A DNA stretch of 62,927 nt. It comes from Acidobacteriota bacterium (lineage in GTDB: Bacteria; Acidobacteriota; Terriglobia; Bryobacterales; Bryobacteraceae). The DNA lies in contig JANXXI010000193.1 of the NCBI GenBank assembly GCA_025350695.1, positions 1-62,927 of the forward strand. Direction: 5' to 3'. A model generated the notes under the pieces. The model searched no databases and had not been told where the DNA came from. It saw only the letters and a program-made list of their open reading frames with translations. This document shows, one piece after another, positions 2,004 through 31,259 of the stretch. Position 1 is the first letter of the stretch; each line of letters opens with the position of its first letter. A program made the position numbers and the translations under genes.

Positions 2004-2873
2004 CTAAACTGCCTTTAATTCCGGAGCCAAAGCCTCGTTCATTGATCCTTGGCGATACCCTTCCAAATCGATGGTCACGTAGTGAAATCCCAGTGGCTTG
2101 AAGATAGCGGTCATTTTAGTGAACATGTCCCGGCTCAAAGCTTTTTCGATCTCATCCGTAGCAACTTCAATTCGAACCAATTTATCGTGAAAGCGAACGC
2201 GGAATTGACGAAAACCTAGCGCCTTCAATTCCTCCTCCCCTTGCTCCACAATCTTGATTGTCTCCTTGGTTACCGCCGTGCCATAGGGTACCCGGGAACT
2301 AAGGCAAGCCGAGGCCGGCCGATCCCAGGTGGGCAACCCAGCTATCCGCGAAAGCTCACGGATTTCAGCCTTGCTCAATCCGGCATCAACTAACGGAGCC
2401 TTCACCTGATGATTCTTCGCGGCACGTTGGCCTGGCCGGAAATCGCCAAGGTCGTCGGTATTCACTCCATAGATCACATGAGTCACGCCACGTTCAGCGC
2501 ACACTTGATCTAGCCGTGAAAACAGTTCGTCCTTGCAATGAAAGCAACGGTTGGAATCGTTCTTCACGTAATCGGGATTCTCGAATTCAAACGTGTCGAT
2601 ATATTCATGCCGGATCCCAAACTGCGCGGCAAACGCTTCAGCATCACGCTTGTGGGATTCGGGGATGGAGGCTGAATCGGCCGTGACTGCCACGGCCTTC
2701 GAACCGAGCACGCAATGAGCCGCCCAGGCCAGATACGCCGAATCAGTCCCGCCGGAATAGGCAATGATCACTTGGTCCATCTCACGCAGCAAATCGAAAA
2801 GCAATCCTTGCTTTGTGCTGAGCGACGCCGGATTCACAACTTTAGGTACGGTCAAATTGACCAACGTGGCCAT
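2004..2873 (-). CDS. larE: LarE-family ATP-dependent sacrificial sulfur transferase
   Basis: A 289-residue PP-loop enzyme. The adenylation P-loop SGGTDS is at residues 40-45, a cysteine pair NRCFHC ends at 113, and PASACLSSRVPYG places C190 where LarE family members keep the cysteine whose sulfur is donated to the nickel-pincer nucleotide precursor. In lactate racemase maturation LarE works with LarB and LarC; neither is in this window. The gene instead starts eight bases after a tungsten-type aldehyde oxidoreductase on the same strand, so its sulfur may serve another enzyme (inference). A perfect TATAAT (2881-2886) lies seven bases before the ATG, so it may also have its own leaderless transcript. 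Confidence 0.9.
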   Translation of the reverse strand: MATLVNLTVPKVVNPASLSTKQGLLFDLLREMDQVIIAYSGGTDSAYLAWAAHCVLGSKAVAVTADSASIPESHKRDAEAFAAQFGIRHEYIDTFEFENPDYVKNDSNRCFHCKDELFSRLDQVCAERGVTHVIYGVNTDDLGDFRPGQRAAKNHQVKAPLVDAGLSKAEIRELSRIAGLPTWDRPASACLSSRVPYGTAVTKETIKIVEQGEEELKALGFRQFRVRFHDKLVRIEVATDEIEKALSRDMFTKMTAIFKPLGFHYVTIDLEGYRQGSMNEALAPELKAV

Positions 2874-2880
2874 AGATTTA

Positions 2881-2886
2881 ATTATA
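2881..2886 (-). promoter_or_regulatory. -10 hexamer TATAAT seven bases before larE
   Basis: Exact consensus hexamer on the minus strand, overlapping the stop codon of the preceding gene. The distance to the larE ATG would place the transcription start at or next to the start codon. No convincing -35 box was found. Confidence 0.35.
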
Positions 2887-4747
2887 CCGGGATGCCGTGA
2901 TGAAGCAGCGCAGCCGCACTGGGGATTCCTTTGTCACTCCAACCCATCAAGCCGTAGTAGGTTCCAATAGCCGCCTCAAATTGGGCGCGATCCAGCTTGT
3001 CCCCGGAGCGCGGACCGCCGTCAATCGCTTCATTGAAGAACCGCGTCGGCAACGTGTCCTCACTCGCCGTAATCCCTTCACGCAGATTGTAGACGCGCAT
3101 GATCTGATTGCGCCGCTCTCCCCATTGCATCAGTTCGTAGTCGCTAGTCTCCCAGCCCGTGATGGCGGCTACCATCGAAGCCATTTCCGGCATGGTCAGA
3201 ATGCGGGTTGGGGCAGACGCAAAGAGGCAGAAGCCCAAGGCGTCCGCTGCCGACCAAAGCGTGTTCAGCACCTTGTACCGGCGCACTTTTTCGGCGCTCA
3301 GTTCATTCATCGGAATACGGTCGTGAATTCCCAGCGTGCGCGCCAAATTCAAAGAATGTTCCCACCCAGCGCCTGTATCGAAATCCCAATCGTGTTCGGC
3401 GATGTCATATCGAGGACCAGTGGGCGAAGTCGCGTAGCCTAGCGCCAGCCCTGTTTGCGATCGCGGCTCGAAGCAGACCATTTCAAGGCCTTTTACCTCC
3501 ATCGCAAAGTGGGAAGCGGCTCCACCAAACTGATCGGCTGCCATGCGCACGCCATCGGCCAGAATGTCGCCCAAACCGTGGCGATGTGTGATGTCCTTCA
3601 TCAAAGCCAAGGCTCCAACGGGGTCCCCAAAAACTGGCCCACCTTCCAAAATGGAATGCTCGCGCAACTCCATGGAGAACGAAAGGACAAAGCCGAGCGA
3701 AACCGGATCAAGCCCGGATTGGTTACAAAGATTATTGGCCGCTAATACCCAATCAAGATCCGTGATCCCGAGGTTCGGTCCCATCGTACCGGTGATCTCC
3801 TGGTGCATACCGCTTGCTTGCAGGGGTAGGCGTGACGAGAACCCTTTGGGGTGGATACGCTGAATACAATCGTTCGGACAATTGGCGCACGCGGCCACAC
3901 CGGCGGTACGCTTCAAATACTCTTCGGTTGAAAAGCGCTCAGTTCCTTCAAGCGTCGCCTTGGAATAGTTATTCACGCATAGCGCCGCCTGTAGTCCGTG
4001 AAGATGGATCCAATTAGAAAACCCCGGGGGCTGCTTCTGCCAATTGCTTAGCGGATTACGCGCGATTCTTTCGGCAAAGGAAATACTGATAGCCTCAAGG
4101 GCGGATGGGTTCGCCACTTCAGGCAAAGTTCCATCCACAATCGCTACCGCCTTCAAATTCTTCGACCCCATCACCGCGCCCATACCCATCCGCATCGCCT
4201 GAAAAGTCCCATCAGTAACGATTGAGGCAAAACGAACAAGTTTCTCACCGGCCGGCCCAATGGCCGCCACTTGCGCCGCGGCGCCAAATTTCGTTTCGAT
4301 TGCCTCGGTGGTTTCAAGAGTAGTCATGCCCCAAAGTTTGGAGGCGTCCAAGAAACTAACTTTTCCGTCTTCGATAATCACCGAAACGGGTGCGTCAGAG
4401 CGCCCGGTGAAAACGATCGCCTCCGCGCCAGATTGTTTCAGCGCCTGGGCAAACGGACCTTCACTGCGAGCTTCACCAATGCCGAATGTGAGTGGGCTCT
4501 TGGCGCACACCACGAATCGGGAAAGCCCCGGAGCCTTGTGTCCGGCTATCACCGAAGACGCAAAAATCAGGGGATTCCGTGGATCGAACGGGTCGAGTCT
4601 CGGAGGGGTTATTTCCAAAAGCAGCTTCGTCGCCAGCAAACCGCCGCCGGCCCACTGTCTAAAAAACGTCTCCGATCTCGTTTCCCAAATTGCTGTTTGA
4701 GTGGTCAGGTCAATCCAAAGAACTTTTGCGTAAAAGCCAAGGGGCAT
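2882..4747 (-). CDS. Aldehyde:ferredoxin oxidoreductase family protein (tungsten/molybdenum pterin, 4Fe-4S)
   Basis: A 621-residue cytoplasmic enzyme of the AOR superfamily, which oxidises aldehydes to acids with ferredoxin or related acceptors using a bis-pterin tungsten centre. The N-terminal domain reads FYAKVLWIDLTT with WAGGGLLATKLL, and RMGMGAVMGSKNLKAVAI is the family pterin-binding segment. The 4Fe-4S ligands are visible as C287-x2-C290-x3-C294 (CANCPNDC) plus C507 in ALGFCLF. Length matches the family (about 600-630). Start is ATG at 4745-4747, with TACGAT seven bases upstream. It diverges from the STAS gene and is followed by larE. The true substrate cannot be read from the sequence. 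Confidence 0.9.
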   Translation of the reverse strand: MPLGFYAKVLWIDLTTQTAIWETRSETFFRQWAGGGLLATKLLLEITPPRLDPFDPRNPLIFASSVIAGHKAPGLSRFVVCAKSPLTFGIGEARSEGPFAQALKQSGAEAIVFTGRSDAPVSVIIEDGKVSFLDASKLWGMTTLETTEAIETKFGAAAQVAAIGPAGEKLVRFASIVTDGTFQAMRMGMGAVMGSKNLKAVAIVDGTLPEVANPSALEAISISFAERIARNPLSNWQKQPPGFSNWIHLHGLQAALCVNNYSKATLEGTERFSTEEYLKRTAGVAACANCPNDCIQRIHPKGFSSRLPLQASGMHQEITGTMGPNLGITDLDWVLAANNLCNQSGLDPVSLGFVLSFSMELREHSILEGGPVFGDPVGALALMKDITHRHGLGDILADGVRMAADQFGGAASHFAMEVKGLEMVCFEPRSQTGLALGYATSPTGPRYDIAEHDWDFDTGAGWEHSLNLARTLGIHDRIPMNELSAEKVRRYKVLNTLWSAADALGFCLFASAPTRILTMPEMASMVAAITGWETSDYELMQWGERRNQIMRVYNLREGITASEDTLPTRFFNEAIDGGPRSGDKLDRAQFEAAIGTYYGLMGWSDKGIPSAAALLHHGIPV

Positions 4748-27839: not shown

Positions 27840-29402
27840 CTAGCGGATCGATTGGGGAACCAGGGGCTGTGTGGATTCCATCTTCTTCAATTCGTCCTCC
27901 ATTCCAACCTCGCCAGCCTCGTGGTATTCTTCATCCACATTCACACGCCACAGGTCATAAAAAGGACCGATGCCGGTCTTCGCGGCAACAATGTTCCGTG
28001 CCGCAAGCATCGCGGTAAGCATGGAATGATCCTGATTGTTGTAGCGATGCATGCCGTTGCGGCCGGCCAATTGCAGGTTTGGCACAGTCTTCAGGAAGGC
28101 TCTAATAGCATCAATGCCGCGCTGGTAGCTATCGTCATAAACCGGATAGGCTTTCGGCATGCGAACTACAGTGCCGTCAATCACGTCGTCCGGATTCACC
28201 AGACCCAAATGTCCAACTTCTCGCTTTGCTAGTTCCACCAGTTCGTGATCGGGCGTCGTCCACAAGCCATCCCCTTCGAAGCAGAAATACTCAAGGCCGA
28301 TGCAGCCATTGGCCGGATCGGGGACCATCTCCGGACTCCAACTCTTGTAGTTTTGAATGCGGCCAACCTTCACGCCAGGCTCGTGAATGTAGATCCAGTT
28401 GTCTGGGAAAACGTTGTCGCCTTTGATGATCAACGCGACGGTCAAAAAATCGCGATAGTGGAAATCGTTCGCGGCGCTGCGAAGTTCCGCCGACGGTGGC
28501 GGATCCAATTTTTCGATCAGTTCCTTGATCGGCATGCTGCTTACAAAATATTCGCCATCGTAGCGTTTGCCCCCGGCATCCACCGAAGTCACGCGCCCTG
28601 GCTCCCAATGGATCTTCTCGACAGGCGCTTCCATCACCACTTTGTGCCCTTGCTCCAGAATCAAATCACGCGTCTTTTGCCACATCATCCCCGGCCCCTT
28701 GCGAGGATACTGGAATTCGTGAATCAGCGTTTTGATTACTTGCGATTTATCTGAGTTCGACTGGGGCTTTATAGCGTTCCATACGGCGCTGAACAAGGAG
28801 AGCCCCTTGATCCGTTGCGCAGCCCATTCGGCCTTGATATTTTTACACGGAATGCCCCACACCTTTTCAGTGTAGGACTCAAAGAAGATGCTAAACAGCC
28901 GTTTGCCGAAACGGTTGGAAACCCAAGCCTGAAAGTTGTCTTCGGGCTTTGTTGGGAATATCTGCGCCCACAAATAGGAGAGTCCGCAACGCACCGCCTC
29001 AAAGATGCCCAAACCGAACAGCGCGTTCTTGGCTTCCAGAGGATAGGCGAAGAATTTGCGTTTATAGAAGATCCGGCTCATCCGGGGCCTGGAAAGAAAA
29101 TCGCCTCCAAGCACTTCCTGCCACATCTTTTCCACCACACCAACCTTCGTGAAAAAGCGATGCCCACCGATGTCGAACAGATAACCCTTATATTCGGCCG
29201 TGCGTGAAATGCCGCCAACCACGTCGTCCTTCTCAAGAACAACAGTCTTGATCCCGTTCTTTGAAAGCTCGTAGGCCGCACTCAAGCCCGCTGGTCCCGC
29301 GCCGATGATCACCACCGAAGGTTCGCCCGCCGATGGCGAAATGGATTCGCCCAAATTCCGCTGTAATGCTTCTAAGCTCTTGACTGTCGATTCAGTGCTC
29401 AT
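27840..29402 (-). CDS. FAD-dependent amine-oxidase-like oxidoreductase
   Basis: A 520-residue flavoprotein. The Rossmann FAD motif VVIIGAGPAGLSAAYELSKNG is at about 30-50 (quoted span VVIIGAGPAGLSA), then VLEKDDVVGGISRT and the GGHRFF motif shared with UDP-galactopyranose mutase, phytoene-desaturase-like and protoporphyrinogen-oxidase-like proteins. The C-terminal FAD contact is LQLAGRNGMHRYNNQDHSM. Its ATG overlaps the DUF362 stop (ATGA, 29399-29402), and it ends a three-gene operon that begins with a squalene-cyclase-repeat protein. The substrate is not evident; terpenoid or glycan modification are both plausible. Confidence 0.82.
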   Translation of the reverse strand: MSTESTVKSLEALQRNLGESISPSAGEPSVVIIGAGPAGLSAAYELSKNGIKTVVLEKDDVVGGISRTAEYKGYLFDIGGHRFFTKVGVVEKMWQEVLGGDFLSRPRMSRIFYKRKFFAYPLEAKNALFGLGIFEAVRCGLSYLWAQIFPTKPEDNFQAWVSNRFGKRLFSIFFESYTEKVWGIPCKNIKAEWAAQRIKGLSLFSAVWNAIKPQSNSDKSQVIKTLIHEFQYPRKGPGMMWQKTRDLILEQGHKVVMEAPVEKIHWEPGRVTSVDAGGKRYDGEYFVSSMPIKELIEKLDPPPSAELRSAANDFHYRDFLTVALIIKGDNVFPDNWIYIHEPGVKVGRIQNYKSWSPEMVPDPANGCIGLEYFCFEGDGLWTTPDHELVELAKREVGHLGLVNPDDVIDGTVVRMPKAYPVYDDSYQRGIDAIRAFLKTVPNLQLAGRNGMHRYNNQDHSMLTAMLAARNIVAAKTGIGPFYDLWRVNVDEEYHEAGEVGMEDELKKMESTQPLVPQSIR

Positions 29403-30370
29403 ATGCGTAGGTGGGCAAATTCCTTGATCAGTTCAAAATTAGTCTGAACGCTGGCTATGGTCTCACCGCGCTGTTCAATGCGCGATTCCTCGGCAATCCC
29501 CAACGATTTAGCACCCAGGATGTACTCCACCTTAAGCGGATCGATCCCCATGATTCGGCAACACGTGGCGTCCACCGCAATATTGTCGGTCCCCATCACC
29601 AACACGCCAGCCTTTTTGGGTGTCCCTTGAATAGGCCCGTTGCCTTCCATGCCCACGATGCCGTCAACAATGGCGAAGGTCTTCCGGAAGATGCGGTTGA
29701 GCTCAATGATCGACACTGGAATGCCGGTATGGTGAAGAAAGTTCTTAGGCCAGCCATAAACCGATCCAGGAACCAGGCCGAAGAAATTCTTCATGGAGAG
29801 TGTTGCCCCAGCCCAATGATGGGTCTTCATCTTGGCCAGGGACACAACCAAGTCAGCTCCAAGCGCCGTGTTGGGAAGGTAAATTTCTTTGTGTTCCGCG
29901 AATTTCGCCACGCTTGTCACGTCATCACGATTCAAATCCACGAAGCTCGCCTCAAATTTCGACAACCCTCGGTAGCCCGCCTCTTCGGCAATGCCGAACG
30001 CGTCGCGCCGATGCCCTGGACCTTCCCCGATCAACACCGTAGCGCCCAAGCTTTGAAACGCACCCCATGCCGCGGCAACCACCGCCACTTCCGTATTGAT
30101 GGCCGTGTCCTTGTCAAACTCCACCAAGTTCGGCTTAAGCAGGACGGTCTTACCTTTTACATCCAATCCGCATTCGCGAATCCCTTGTAGAATTTTTTGA
30201 GTTAGATCCTCACTGTAGGAAGCGGCTTTGACCACCGCCACTACCGATTTGCCTTGTTTTGGAAGTTCCGCTTTTTTCACGAAGGTACACCCGGCAGCCG
30301 CGATCCCGGTCGCGGCTAAACCCCAAAATTCCCGTCTGGACGAATTGGATGTCATAGGAAAATCCGCCAT
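29399..30370 (-). CDS. DUF362 protein with Tat-like signal
   Basis: A 323-residue protein of the DUF362 family. The N-terminus TSNSSRREFWGLAATGIAAAGC has a twin-arginine-like RREF motif and a possible lipobox (AAAGC). Family segments are KTVLLKPNLVEFD, VVAAAWGAFQSLGATVLIGEGPG, LVVSLAKMKTHHWAGATLSMKN (the conserved metal- or substrate-contact region), and VDATCCRIMGIDPLKVEYI. No ferredoxin-type cysteine clusters are present. Biochemical activity of the family is poorly defined. It sits four bases after the squalene-cyclase-repeat gene and overlaps the FAD-enzyme gene by four bases. Confidence 0.85.
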   Translation of the reverse strand: MADFPMTSNSSRREFWGLAATGIAAAGCTFVKKAELPKQGKSVVAVVKAASYSEDLTQKILQGIRECGLDVKGKTVLLKPNLVEFDKDTAINTEVAVVAAAWGAFQSLGATVLIGEGPGHRRDAFGIAEEAGYRGLSKFEASFVDLNRDDVTSVAKFAEHKEIYLPNTALGADLVVSLAKMKTHHWAGATLSMKNFFGLVPGSVYGWPKNFLHHTGIPVSIIELNRIFRKTFAIVDGIVGMEGNGPIQGTPKKAGVLVMGTDNIAVDATCCRIMGIDPLKVEYILGAKSLGIAEESRIEQRGETIASVQTNFELIKEFAHLRI

Positions 30371-30374
30371 TGCT

Positions 30375-31259
30375 CTAAGCCGCGGGCCTTAGCAGCGAAA
30401 AACTACCTTCTGAACAACCAATAGCTTCGATACCGGCGACCAGTAAATCCCGGCCTGGATCTTTGGGCGATTCTGTTCCCAGATTCAACCCATAGGTACG
30501 CAGGCTGACTTTTAGCAGAGCACTACCAAGTGGAGATTGCCCGTCGTCATAAAGCCGCTTCGCCCTGGCCAGTGCGGGGCCTAACTCCGCATCCCGATTA
30601 CCCTGCAGGCCAAGTAACGCTAAGGCCGTAGTTTCGGGGTAAGAAGGAAGCTGCACGCCCAAGGCTTCTTTACTCCCGTAGTTCCATCCGCCGTCAGTAC
30701 AACGGCGGCGCAGAATCATTCCTTCGCCAAGAATGATCCGCCGCTTAACTAATGCGCCGGGAATCTGCGGAGCCGCCTTCTTAAGAGCAACCAAAGAGTG
30801 AGCCGTGGGTTCGATCCAACTGGCCGTGCCTGGACGCCAAGGCCAACCTCGATATCGAAGGTCGTGCCCGGTGGGTGATATCTTTGTGACATAAGAGATC
30901 ATCCGGTCAAGCAGCTTGCCTTCAGCCCCAGCTGAATCAAGGAGCCAATCCACGCCATTGCGAAAGTGGCCGTCGTAAACGCCACGCACGCAGTGGAGGG
31001 TTATGGCTAAGGCCGTCGTCCAGTGGGCATCTTCGACACATGAAGTCGGCCGCCAGGCGCCATCTTCCCGTTGCCACTGGCGCATCAGATTCCAACCCTT
31101 GTCCCAGGTCGCGGTTCCGGCGTCTTGATGCTGCGCCAAAAGAGCGTAGGCCGTTGGTTCCAACCACGAGCGCTTTCCAGGAAAGTATCCCCATCCCCCA
31201 TCGGAGTTTTGGGACTCTTTGAGCAAGCGAAGGCGGCGGCCTAGATAGCTTTCTAGCAT
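30375..31259 (-). CDS. Prenyltransferase/squalene-cyclase repeat (alpha/alpha barrel) protein
   Basis: A 294-residue protein built of QW-like helical repeats: LLKESQNSDGGWGYFPGKRS, LMRQWQREDGAWRPT, and RRRCTDGGWNYGSKEA, with periodic EPTAYALLA / EPTAHSLVAL helices. It is less than half the size of a squalene-hopene cyclase and lacks a visible DxDD acid motif, so cyclase activity is doubtful. A single half-barrel binding or transferring an isoprenoid is more likely. It is first in an operon with DUF362 and FAD-enzyme genes. Confidence 0.8.
   Translation of the reverse strand: MLESYLGRRLRLLKESQNSDGGWGYFPGKRSWLEPTAYALLAQHQDAGTATWDKGWNLMRQWQREDGAWRPTSCVEDAHWTTALAITLHCVRGVYDGHFRNGVDWLLDSAGAEGKLLDRMISYVTKISPTGHDLRYRGWPWRPGTASWIEPTAHSLVALKKAAPQIPGALVKRRIILGEGMILRRRCTDGGWNYGSKEALGVQLPSYPETTALALLGLQGNRDAELGPALARAKRLYDDGQSPLGSALLKVSLRTYGLNLGTESPKDPGRDLLVAGIEAIGCSEGSFSLLRPAA

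Follow-up and report, generated by a model that had tools for sequence, protein, structure and literature searches.

According to excerpts of PMC7583248 and PMC12611868, the lactate racemase LarA holds the nickel-pincer nucleotide (NPN) cofactor via Arg75, Lys184 and His200, while His108 and His174 function as acid/base residues. As summarised in part of PMC11796402, about 15% of surveyed genomes, including many cyanobacteria, contain larB, larC and larE but no larA, suggesting that there are NPN proteins other than LarA; moreover, a nickel-pincer enzyme is suspected in Haloferax volcanii (excerpt of PMC8305020). Pfam assigns DUF362 and the LarA domain (DUF2088/Lar_N) to one clan, CL0471, and for this reason DUF362 has been used as an outgroup (excerpt of PMC11770544). 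In type II terpene synthases, as described in part of PMC9814783, the DxDD motif is highly conserved and its central Asp is the general acid. Here, we analysed a stretch of 62,927 nucleotides from an Acidobacteriota bacterium (assembly GCA_025350695.1, contig JANXXI010000193.1; hereafter the window), which is an entire contig (C129) of a 7.19-Mb assembly. In it, a gene for a terpene cyclase-like protein, which we refer to as CYC, is followed by a gene for a DUF362 protein, and we tentatively interpret the two as a module around an exported NPN-type enzyme.

A conserved pair of CYC and DUF362 genes

Three closely spaced open reading frames (ORFs) are located on the minus strand of the window:

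31259-30375, minus strand: CYC, ORF of 294 residues, first gene of the pair
30370-29399, minus strand: DUF362 protein, ORF of 323 residues, second gene of the pair, predicted LarA-like fold
29402-27840, minus strand: flavin adenine dinucleotide (FAD) enzyme, ORF of 520 residues, similar to PRK07208 and UDP-galactopyranose mutase proteins, lineage-specific third gene

CYC and the DUF362 gene are separated by 4 bases (30371-30374), and the DUF362 and FAD genes overlap by 4 bases (29399-29402). A preliminary description of this DNA had reported this spacing and proposed that all three proteins serve a dedicated route by which a polyprenyl or hopanoid-like substrate is modified oxidatively. The ORFs and their spacing were as described, and so were two identities: the DUF362 protein matches PF04015 (155.9 bits, cut-off 24) and the FAD enzyme matches Amino_oxidase PF01593 (78.1 bits, cut-off 19.8) and has the sequence GGHRFF in its translation.

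When genome contigs were scanned with CYC, 52 loci were obtained; 42 with a match over most of the protein or to a contig end were kept, and ten short matches (L128-L137) to only part of the protein were left out. Where full-length relatives are on named contigs, nearly all of the titles read Acidobacteria, Bryobacterales or Terriglobia, and one (L109) reads Acidimicrobiia. In 40 of these 42 loci, the gene after CYC encodes a DUF362 protein of the same subfamily; in L119 the contig stops inside CYC, and in L098 no DUF362 gene was found. In at least 26 of these 40 pairs, there is a possible start codon that would create an overlap of 4 bases with CYC. Similarly, CYC is matched strongly (E 1.8e-22 or better) in 15 of 41 relatives, and precisely these 15 also contain the close DUF362, with an E of 1e-76 or better in 14 and a match cut at a contig end in G027. 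The DUF362 gene adjoins CYC in 14 of these genomes and lies on a separate contig in G010; among the 41 relatives, CYC was found beside a DUF362 gene of this subfamily wherever the contigs allowed a check. Finally, in a phylum sample of 396 genomes drawn evenly, 16 including the window's own match CYC, and DUF362 is beside CYC in 14 of the 15 others, the exception (G373) being a long repeat protein. G025 and G036 among the 41 relatives and G373 in the phylum sample were not counted as having CYC, and the three samples partly overlap (e.g. L087 is G005 and L123 is G328). The protein in G373 (contig C195, L212) is very long, apparently secreted as judged by eye, has cyclase-type repeats and a weak match to the CYC profile, and has no DUF362 within 1.5 kb.

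In G328, three diverged copies of the pair are present and all are complete. In a mirror-tree comparison, CYC and DUF362 distances correlated with an r of 0.90 over 51 loci, which was reached in 0 of 1000 permutations; shared species history accounts for much of this correlation. The surroundings of the pair were compared across the window, the 42 loci and 14 additional regions. No other gene cluster recurs there in over 8 loci; the larger neighbour clusters are, as judged by position, shadow ORFs overlapping the pair. The same-genus genome G001 contains the pair at 75% and 84% identity without the FAD gene.

The best NCBIfam match of the FAD enzyme is NF005548/PRK07208.1-4 ('hypothetical protein'; 705.7 bits, cut-off 389). 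Solved UDP-galactopyranose mutases match it at up to 79.2 bits; thus, it is a PRK07208-group protein with resemblance to these mutases, yet it is below the cut-off of the UDP-galactopyranose mutase equivalog TIGR00031 (30.4 versus 303.75 bits). The FAD gene follows the pair on the same strand in only two of the 42 loci (L087 and L090), a count in which the contigs of L115 and L119 end before its place and those of L089 and L114 within 450 bases of it. In G001, it is absent (best match E 1.2e-5). Relatives with 60-65% identity over nearly the full length are present in G008, G025, G032 and G037; those in G025, G032 and G037 are 63-65% identical, yet these genomes have no full-length CYC match, and in G008 the relative is on a different contig from the pair, beside a glycosyltransferase-like gene. 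In L098, a homologue with 43% identity is on the opposite strand. When the FAD gene context was compared in G005, G008, G032 and G037, a clear neighbour was seen in G008 alone, giving no conclusive functional clue.

Because the FAD gene adjoins the pair on the same strand in 2 of 42 loci and is absent from the same-genus genome, it is outside the conserved unit, and the trio is rejected as a conserved pathway. Conservation of the neighbourhood had been set beforehand as a check on the preliminary description, and its interpretation is partly supported: the link between CYC and DUF362 is borne out by their near-constant pairing, whereas the link of the FAD enzyme to the pair is not. In total, we conclude that the conserved unit is a two-gene module of CYC and DUF362, and that the FAD enzyme joined the pair in a few genomes and is dispensable for the unit.

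In L108 (6847-7878) the DUF362 gene, and in L126 (4653-5466) the CYC gene, is split over two ORFs by a frameshift or an assembly error. In the clade of L117, L118, L120, L121 and L122, three shared same-strand genes follow the pair; judged by eye, these encode a small protein with one hydrophobic stretch, an outer-membrane lipoprotein carrier look-alike and a multi-spanning acyltransferase look-alike. In the window, a same-strand gene that was identified by eye, through its translation, as leucyl-tRNA synthetase ends 92 bases before CYC, and a phosphodiesterase-type gene (PF01663) is 218 bases past the FAD gene. A scan for promoters and terminators was no better than chance (1 promoter-like sequence versus 3.0 expected and 6 terminator-like sequences versus 6.0).

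The DUF362 protein: signal, predicted fold and site residues

The nearest named NCBIfam model for the DUF362 protein, NF052623 (Npun_F2552 family), scores 110.3 bits against a cut-off of 500. Lar_N (PF09861) was not matched; at E up to 0.1, only PF04015 and a sub-threshold Muramidase match were obtained. PMC12423673, followed up as a DUF362 paper, was a false lead and concerns DUF3623. Four features of the protein are referred to below:

30251-30370, minus strand: Tat-type (twin-arginine translocation) signal, residues 1-40, with a twin-arginine and a lipobox-like AAGC, read from sequence
30332-30337, minus strand: the two arginines of the signal, residues 12-13, read from sequence
29732-29821, minus strand: His184, Lys194 and His213, proposed equivalents of LarA His174, Lys184 and His200
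30002-30022, minus strand: GPGHRRD loop with His120, candidate second catalytic histidine

Of 38 aligned relatives, 36 have both arginines, and the N terminus is hydrophobic; a lipobox count of 12 of 40 was not used because the script picked a later arginine pair in several sequences. Together with the lipobox-like sequence, these features suggest that the protein is most likely exported by the Tat pathway and kept at the membrane.

The model of the DUF362 protein has a mean predicted local distance difference test score (pLDDT) of 82.6. Eleven entries whose titles name a lactate or malate racemase or a LarA-like protein aligned with it at Z 14.9-16.6 over 204-213 residues (root-mean-square deviation 3.1-3.5), and an unnamed Thermotoga protein (4nar) did so at Z 13.8, while all else among the 1000 chains compared was at 6.3 or below. 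Thus, the predicted fold is that of the lactate racemase LarA.

To align site residues, we compared DUF362 and LarA profiles in hhalign. With filtered profiles, in which motif and length filters kept 28 of 32 DUF362 and 25 of 30 LarA sequences, the match had a P of 91.4% and an E of 9.2e-7; in controls done with these filtered profiles only, reversed LarA gave an E of 0.42 and the best of 30 column shuffles an E of 0.12. Because the filters favour the motif in question, the comparison was rerun with unfiltered sets, giving a P of 73.9% and an E of 2.8e-5 with the same residues aligned. In both cases, His184 was placed on the catalytic His174 of LarA and Lys194 on the NPN-tethering Lys184, the latter being assigned in the genome's own LarA from the 10- and 16-residue spacings in the numbering given in an excerpt of PMC7583248. 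His213 was placed on the nickel ligand His200 in the global alignment only, a placement that the spacing of the motif also points to, and the nearby region is modelled at low confidence. His184, Lys194 and His213 are invariant in 38 of 38 relatives, and GPGHRRD is present in all 38 subfamily members.

We also examined 32 other DUF362 proteins, taken from the phylum sample and from the genome of the window: 29 contain H-x9-KN, and in 26 of those a His lies 14 or 15 residues past the Lys. The script took the first H-x9-KN in each protein; in L004, another such motif has a His 14 residues past its Lys. The corresponding distance is 16 residues in LarA (25 of 30) and 19 in the window's subfamily, which exceeds the distance in most of the other DUF362 proteins compared by 4-5 residues. 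Compared to DUF362 (PF04015) in general, the subfamily therefore adds the GPGHRRD loop, the Tat-type signal and this longer spacing. With the LarA superfamily it shares the predicted fold (Z up to 16.6), the aligned His and the Lys at the NPN tether, with the later His as a candidate nickel ligand; by contrast to LarA (about 420-430 residues), it is 323 residues long and has a Tat-type signal and no Lar_N match. Because Lar_N is unmatched and several site residues are not aligned clearly, we did not class it as LarA. From the modelled fold and the NPN-site residues, the metal-dependent role that had been suggested for the DUF362 protein is plausible.

In L093, L094, L096, L098, L101, L102, L112 and L126, a gene of one cluster is about 1-7 kb from CYC; the one in L126 matches 'nickel pincer cofactor-dependent isomerase, group 22' (442.7 bits, cut-off 400). 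This proximity may be coincidental and come from a conserved region.

CYC: a class II cyclase homologue without the DxDD motif

CYC has no Pfam match over cut-off, the best being SQHop_cyclase_C (14.5 versus 26.1 bits). In the family of 41 members used for the residue counts of CYC, other members match the SQHop_cyclase models at E up to 0.1 (37 of 41 for the C model and 39 of 41 for the N model). At the sequence level, the family profile retrieves SsDMS (E 4.2e-22) and squalene-hopene cyclase (E 4.1e-13), and also matches 8paj and 8pak. The AlphaFold model (pLDDT 93.4) is a complete single-domain alpha6/alpha6 barrel, which in VIA-align reached Z 23.4 to a drimenyl diphosphate synthase variant, 23.1 to squalene-hopene cyclase and 19-21 to single-domain-sized cyclases. 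Unrelated alpha/alpha barrels (glycosidases, epimerases) also reached Z 18-21; because many of them do so, the kinship of CYC to cyclases rests on the sequence match. We conclude that CYC is homologous to class II terpene cyclases, in agreement with the cyclase-like identity first given to it.

CYC had also been described as being under half the usual length. This holds against solved squalene-hopene cyclase chains (619-631 residues); however, its length alone is not abnormal because single-domain-sized class II cyclases of about 340-365 residues (8paj, 8pak, MstE) have been solved. For 8paj and 8pak, a literature search gave no paper among the matches listed. Like the single-domain class II cyclases (MstE 6sbb; 8paj, 8pak) and SsDMS, CYC is a complete alpha6/alpha6 barrel (Z 19-23); unlike them, its family has WxEPT or similar in place of DxDD:

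31152-31169, minus strand: S31-W-L-E34-P-T36 of CYC, with E34 at the position of the class II general-acid Asp (hmmsearch alignment)

The absence of DxDD, noted for the window's protein in the preliminary description, extends to the whole family (0 of 41). Although homologous to class II cyclases, CYC therefore lacks the motif by which their catalysis is defined. E34 is invariant in 41 of 41 and aligned by hmmsearch with a Glu of 7xr7, a D303E variant of SsDMS, this Glu being taken from entry titles as residue 303, the general acid. E150, W139, W141 and W148 are invariant as well, and the conserved Glu and Trp residues suggest a ligand site. Because the DxDD acid is replaced by a conserved Glu in WxEPT, CYC is more likely a protein that binds or prepares a hydrophobic substrate, or that holds the DUF362 protein, than a usual polyprene cyclase. 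CYC has no hydrophobic N terminus. The isoprenoid-type substrate proposed at the outset is unsupported by these results.

NPN supply and the proposed function of the pair

The window also contains a gene for NPN synthesis, on the same contig and outside the pair:

2004-2873, minus strand: larE, NPN sulfur transferase (TIGR00268, 311.9 bits, cut-off 150)

An aldehyde ferredoxin oxidoreductase gene (2882-4747) is 8 bases from larE on the minus strand. In the window's genome, LarC, the NPN nickel-insertase, is encoded on contig C101 and LarA on C216; among the 41 relatives, LarC is present in all 41 and LarE is over cut-off in 40. With genes for LarE and LarC present, NPN is probably available in the host genome.

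In 60 Acidobacteriota genomes, 28 have LarC and DUF362, 3 DUF362 only, 11 LarC only and 18 neither (p 2.8e-5). The association is found in the 34 LarA-negative genomes: 14 have both, 1 has DUF362 only, 2 have LarC only and 17 have neither (Fisher p 1.6e-6), so that DUF362 is present in 14 of 16 LarC-positive but in 1 of 18 LarC-negative genomes. The corresponding counts are 14/1/2/13 in those LarA-negative genomes that are at least 90% complete (p 2.2e-5) and 8/1/1/9 when the 34 are counted by family (p 0.001). These counts cover one phylum, consider tree structure in the family-level table only, and are from genome lists transferred manually; the sub-cut-off DUF362 matches of G064 and G090, which are in the frame of a LarA-type match, were counted as DUF362-negative. 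G052 and G088 (75% and 79% complete) have DUF362 and LarA and no LarC match. Among 14 control genomes, those of Synechococcus elongatus and Haloferax volcanii encode LarC and DUF362 and no Lar_N, as would be expected if DUF362 is an NPN user, and Thermotoga maritima and Methanosarcina acetivorans have all three. A DUF362 match is within about 2 kb of a LarA-type match in five further genomes of Acidobacteriota, on G056:C134, G070:C131, G083:C101, G086:C42 and G096:C141.

From what was computed here (the pairing, the Tat-type signal, the predicted fold, the residue conservation and the presence of LarC, LarE and LarA genes), we infer NPN binding, export, a reaction, its substrate and a task for CYC. 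In the best explanation, to which we give a chance somewhat short of even, the two genes form a module of a Tat-targeted, NPN-type DUF362 enzyme and a cytoplasmic cyclase-like partner, CYC. The DUF362 protein would fold in the cytoplasm around NPN held by Lys194 with the nickel ligated by His213; it would then be exported in the folded, NPN-loaded form by the Tat pathway and remain on the outer side of the inner membrane, performing there a LarA-type hydride transfer on a hydroxylated substrate, i.e. a racemisation, an epimerisation or a related oxidation or reduction. CYC would act from the cytoplasm, either by binding, preparing or delivering a hydrophobic substrate or by holding the DUF362 protein until the cofactor is inserted.

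Several observations weigh against this explanation. No structure or assay is known that has NPN on a DUF362 protein. Sequence searches with the DUF362 protein gave no credible solved relative; the Foldseek TM-scores of its model to LarA are modest (0.34-0.46), and the model is weak around residues 201-210 (pLDDT 57). The subfamily profile alone misses LarA, both with the genome's own LarA and with the neighbouring NPN isomerase family as hhalign targets (P 0.14% and 0.47%). For LarA Asp72 and Arg75, the alignments give no clear equivalent, and His120 is one or two residues off LarA His108. Three of the 32 other DUF362 proteins (frames picked by script) lack H-x9-KN, and L002 and L003, which are other DUF362 proteins of the window's genome, lack the later His. 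As for the phyletic pattern, the genome's own LarA could be its only NPN user, and LarC does not track DUF362 among the 41 relatives because LarC is universal while 14 of 41 have no match to the window's DUF362. The 26 LarA-positive genomes have no LarC-DUF362 association (p 1.0), which would be expected if LarA by itself can account for LarC. DUF362 is present without LarC or LarA in G053 (99% complete) and without LarC in the control Bacteroides ihuae. LarC is present without DUF362 or Lar_N in the controls Corynebacterium glutamicum and Methanocaldococcus jannaschii as well as in G063 and G091, the latter two possibly having a further NPN user or a missed relative.

The DUF362 protein could instead use the LarA fold and the conserved His/Lys/His site for a ligand other than NPN, e.g. 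a plain metal ion or a nucleotide, as a Tat-exported binding protein or hydrolase for which CYC prepares or carries a lipid substrate. The miss of LarA by the subfamily profile, the unmatched Asp72 and Arg75 and the genome of G053 are in line with this idea, and PF04015 is still a domain of unknown function in Pfam; however, the exact H-x9-K spacing and the later His in most DUF362 proteins examined fit the tether and the ligand of LarA, and DUF362 tracks LarC in LarA-negative genomes, and we therefore consider a non-NPN ligand doubtful, although it deserves attention. CYC may alternatively be a dedicated cytoplasmic chaperone that keeps the DUF362 protein back while the cofactor is being inserted and hands it over to Tat afterwards. 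TorD and NapD are chaperones of this kind for other Tat substrates. CYC, itself without a hydrophobic N terminus, is the near-constant neighbour directly upstream of a protein with a Tat-type signal, the overlapping start codon is widely available, and all three diverged pairs of G328 keep both genes. Nevertheless, such a role is unlikely, given that CYC is homologous to enzymes and has five invariant Glu and Trp residues and that none of the NPN enzymes described to date is known to need a chaperone of this kind.

It is less probable still that CYC is an active single-domain class II cyclase, in which Glu34 stands in for the Asp of DxDD and whose cyclic terpenoid product is then modified by the DUF362 protein. 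While the fold and the profile match class II cyclases, including single-domain-sized ones, and Glu34 is invariant and aligned with the general acid, DxDD is absent throughout the family and the SsDMS variant with a Glu at this position is, according to entry titles, a mutant crystallised with its substrate, which suggests low activity. Finally, the three genes could form one pathway for a polyprenyl or hopanoid-like lipid, in which the FAD enzyme would be the oxidase that modifies it. The tight spacing in the window, the recurrence of the trio in L087 and L090 and the homology of CYC to class II cyclases speak for this pathway, yet the rarity of the FAD gene beside the pair, its absence from the same genus and its location in G008, where it is next to a glycosyltransferase gene on a contig without the pair, make it very unlikely.

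The module of an exported NPN-type DUF362 enzyme with CYC would be one case of a broader idea, which we put forward at appreciably less than an even chance: that DUF362 is a second, unrecognised family of NPN proteins and comprises the non-LarA users, and that the subfamily in the window is a Tat-exported branch with an obligate terpene cyclase-like partner. No earlier claim of NPN use by DUF362 was found in our search, which left subscription papers and bioRxiv preprints mostly outside and covered all matches for DUF362 itself and the top matches only of the NPN, LarA, larBCE and Tat literature. If the idea is true, a large family of 'unknown function' would gain a cofactor and a chemistry, and DUF362 would be the missing NPN user in genomes that make NPN without LarA. 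To this, the version in the window adds a Tat-type signal, which would place the cofactor outside the cytoplasm, and a near-constant terpene cyclase-like partner.

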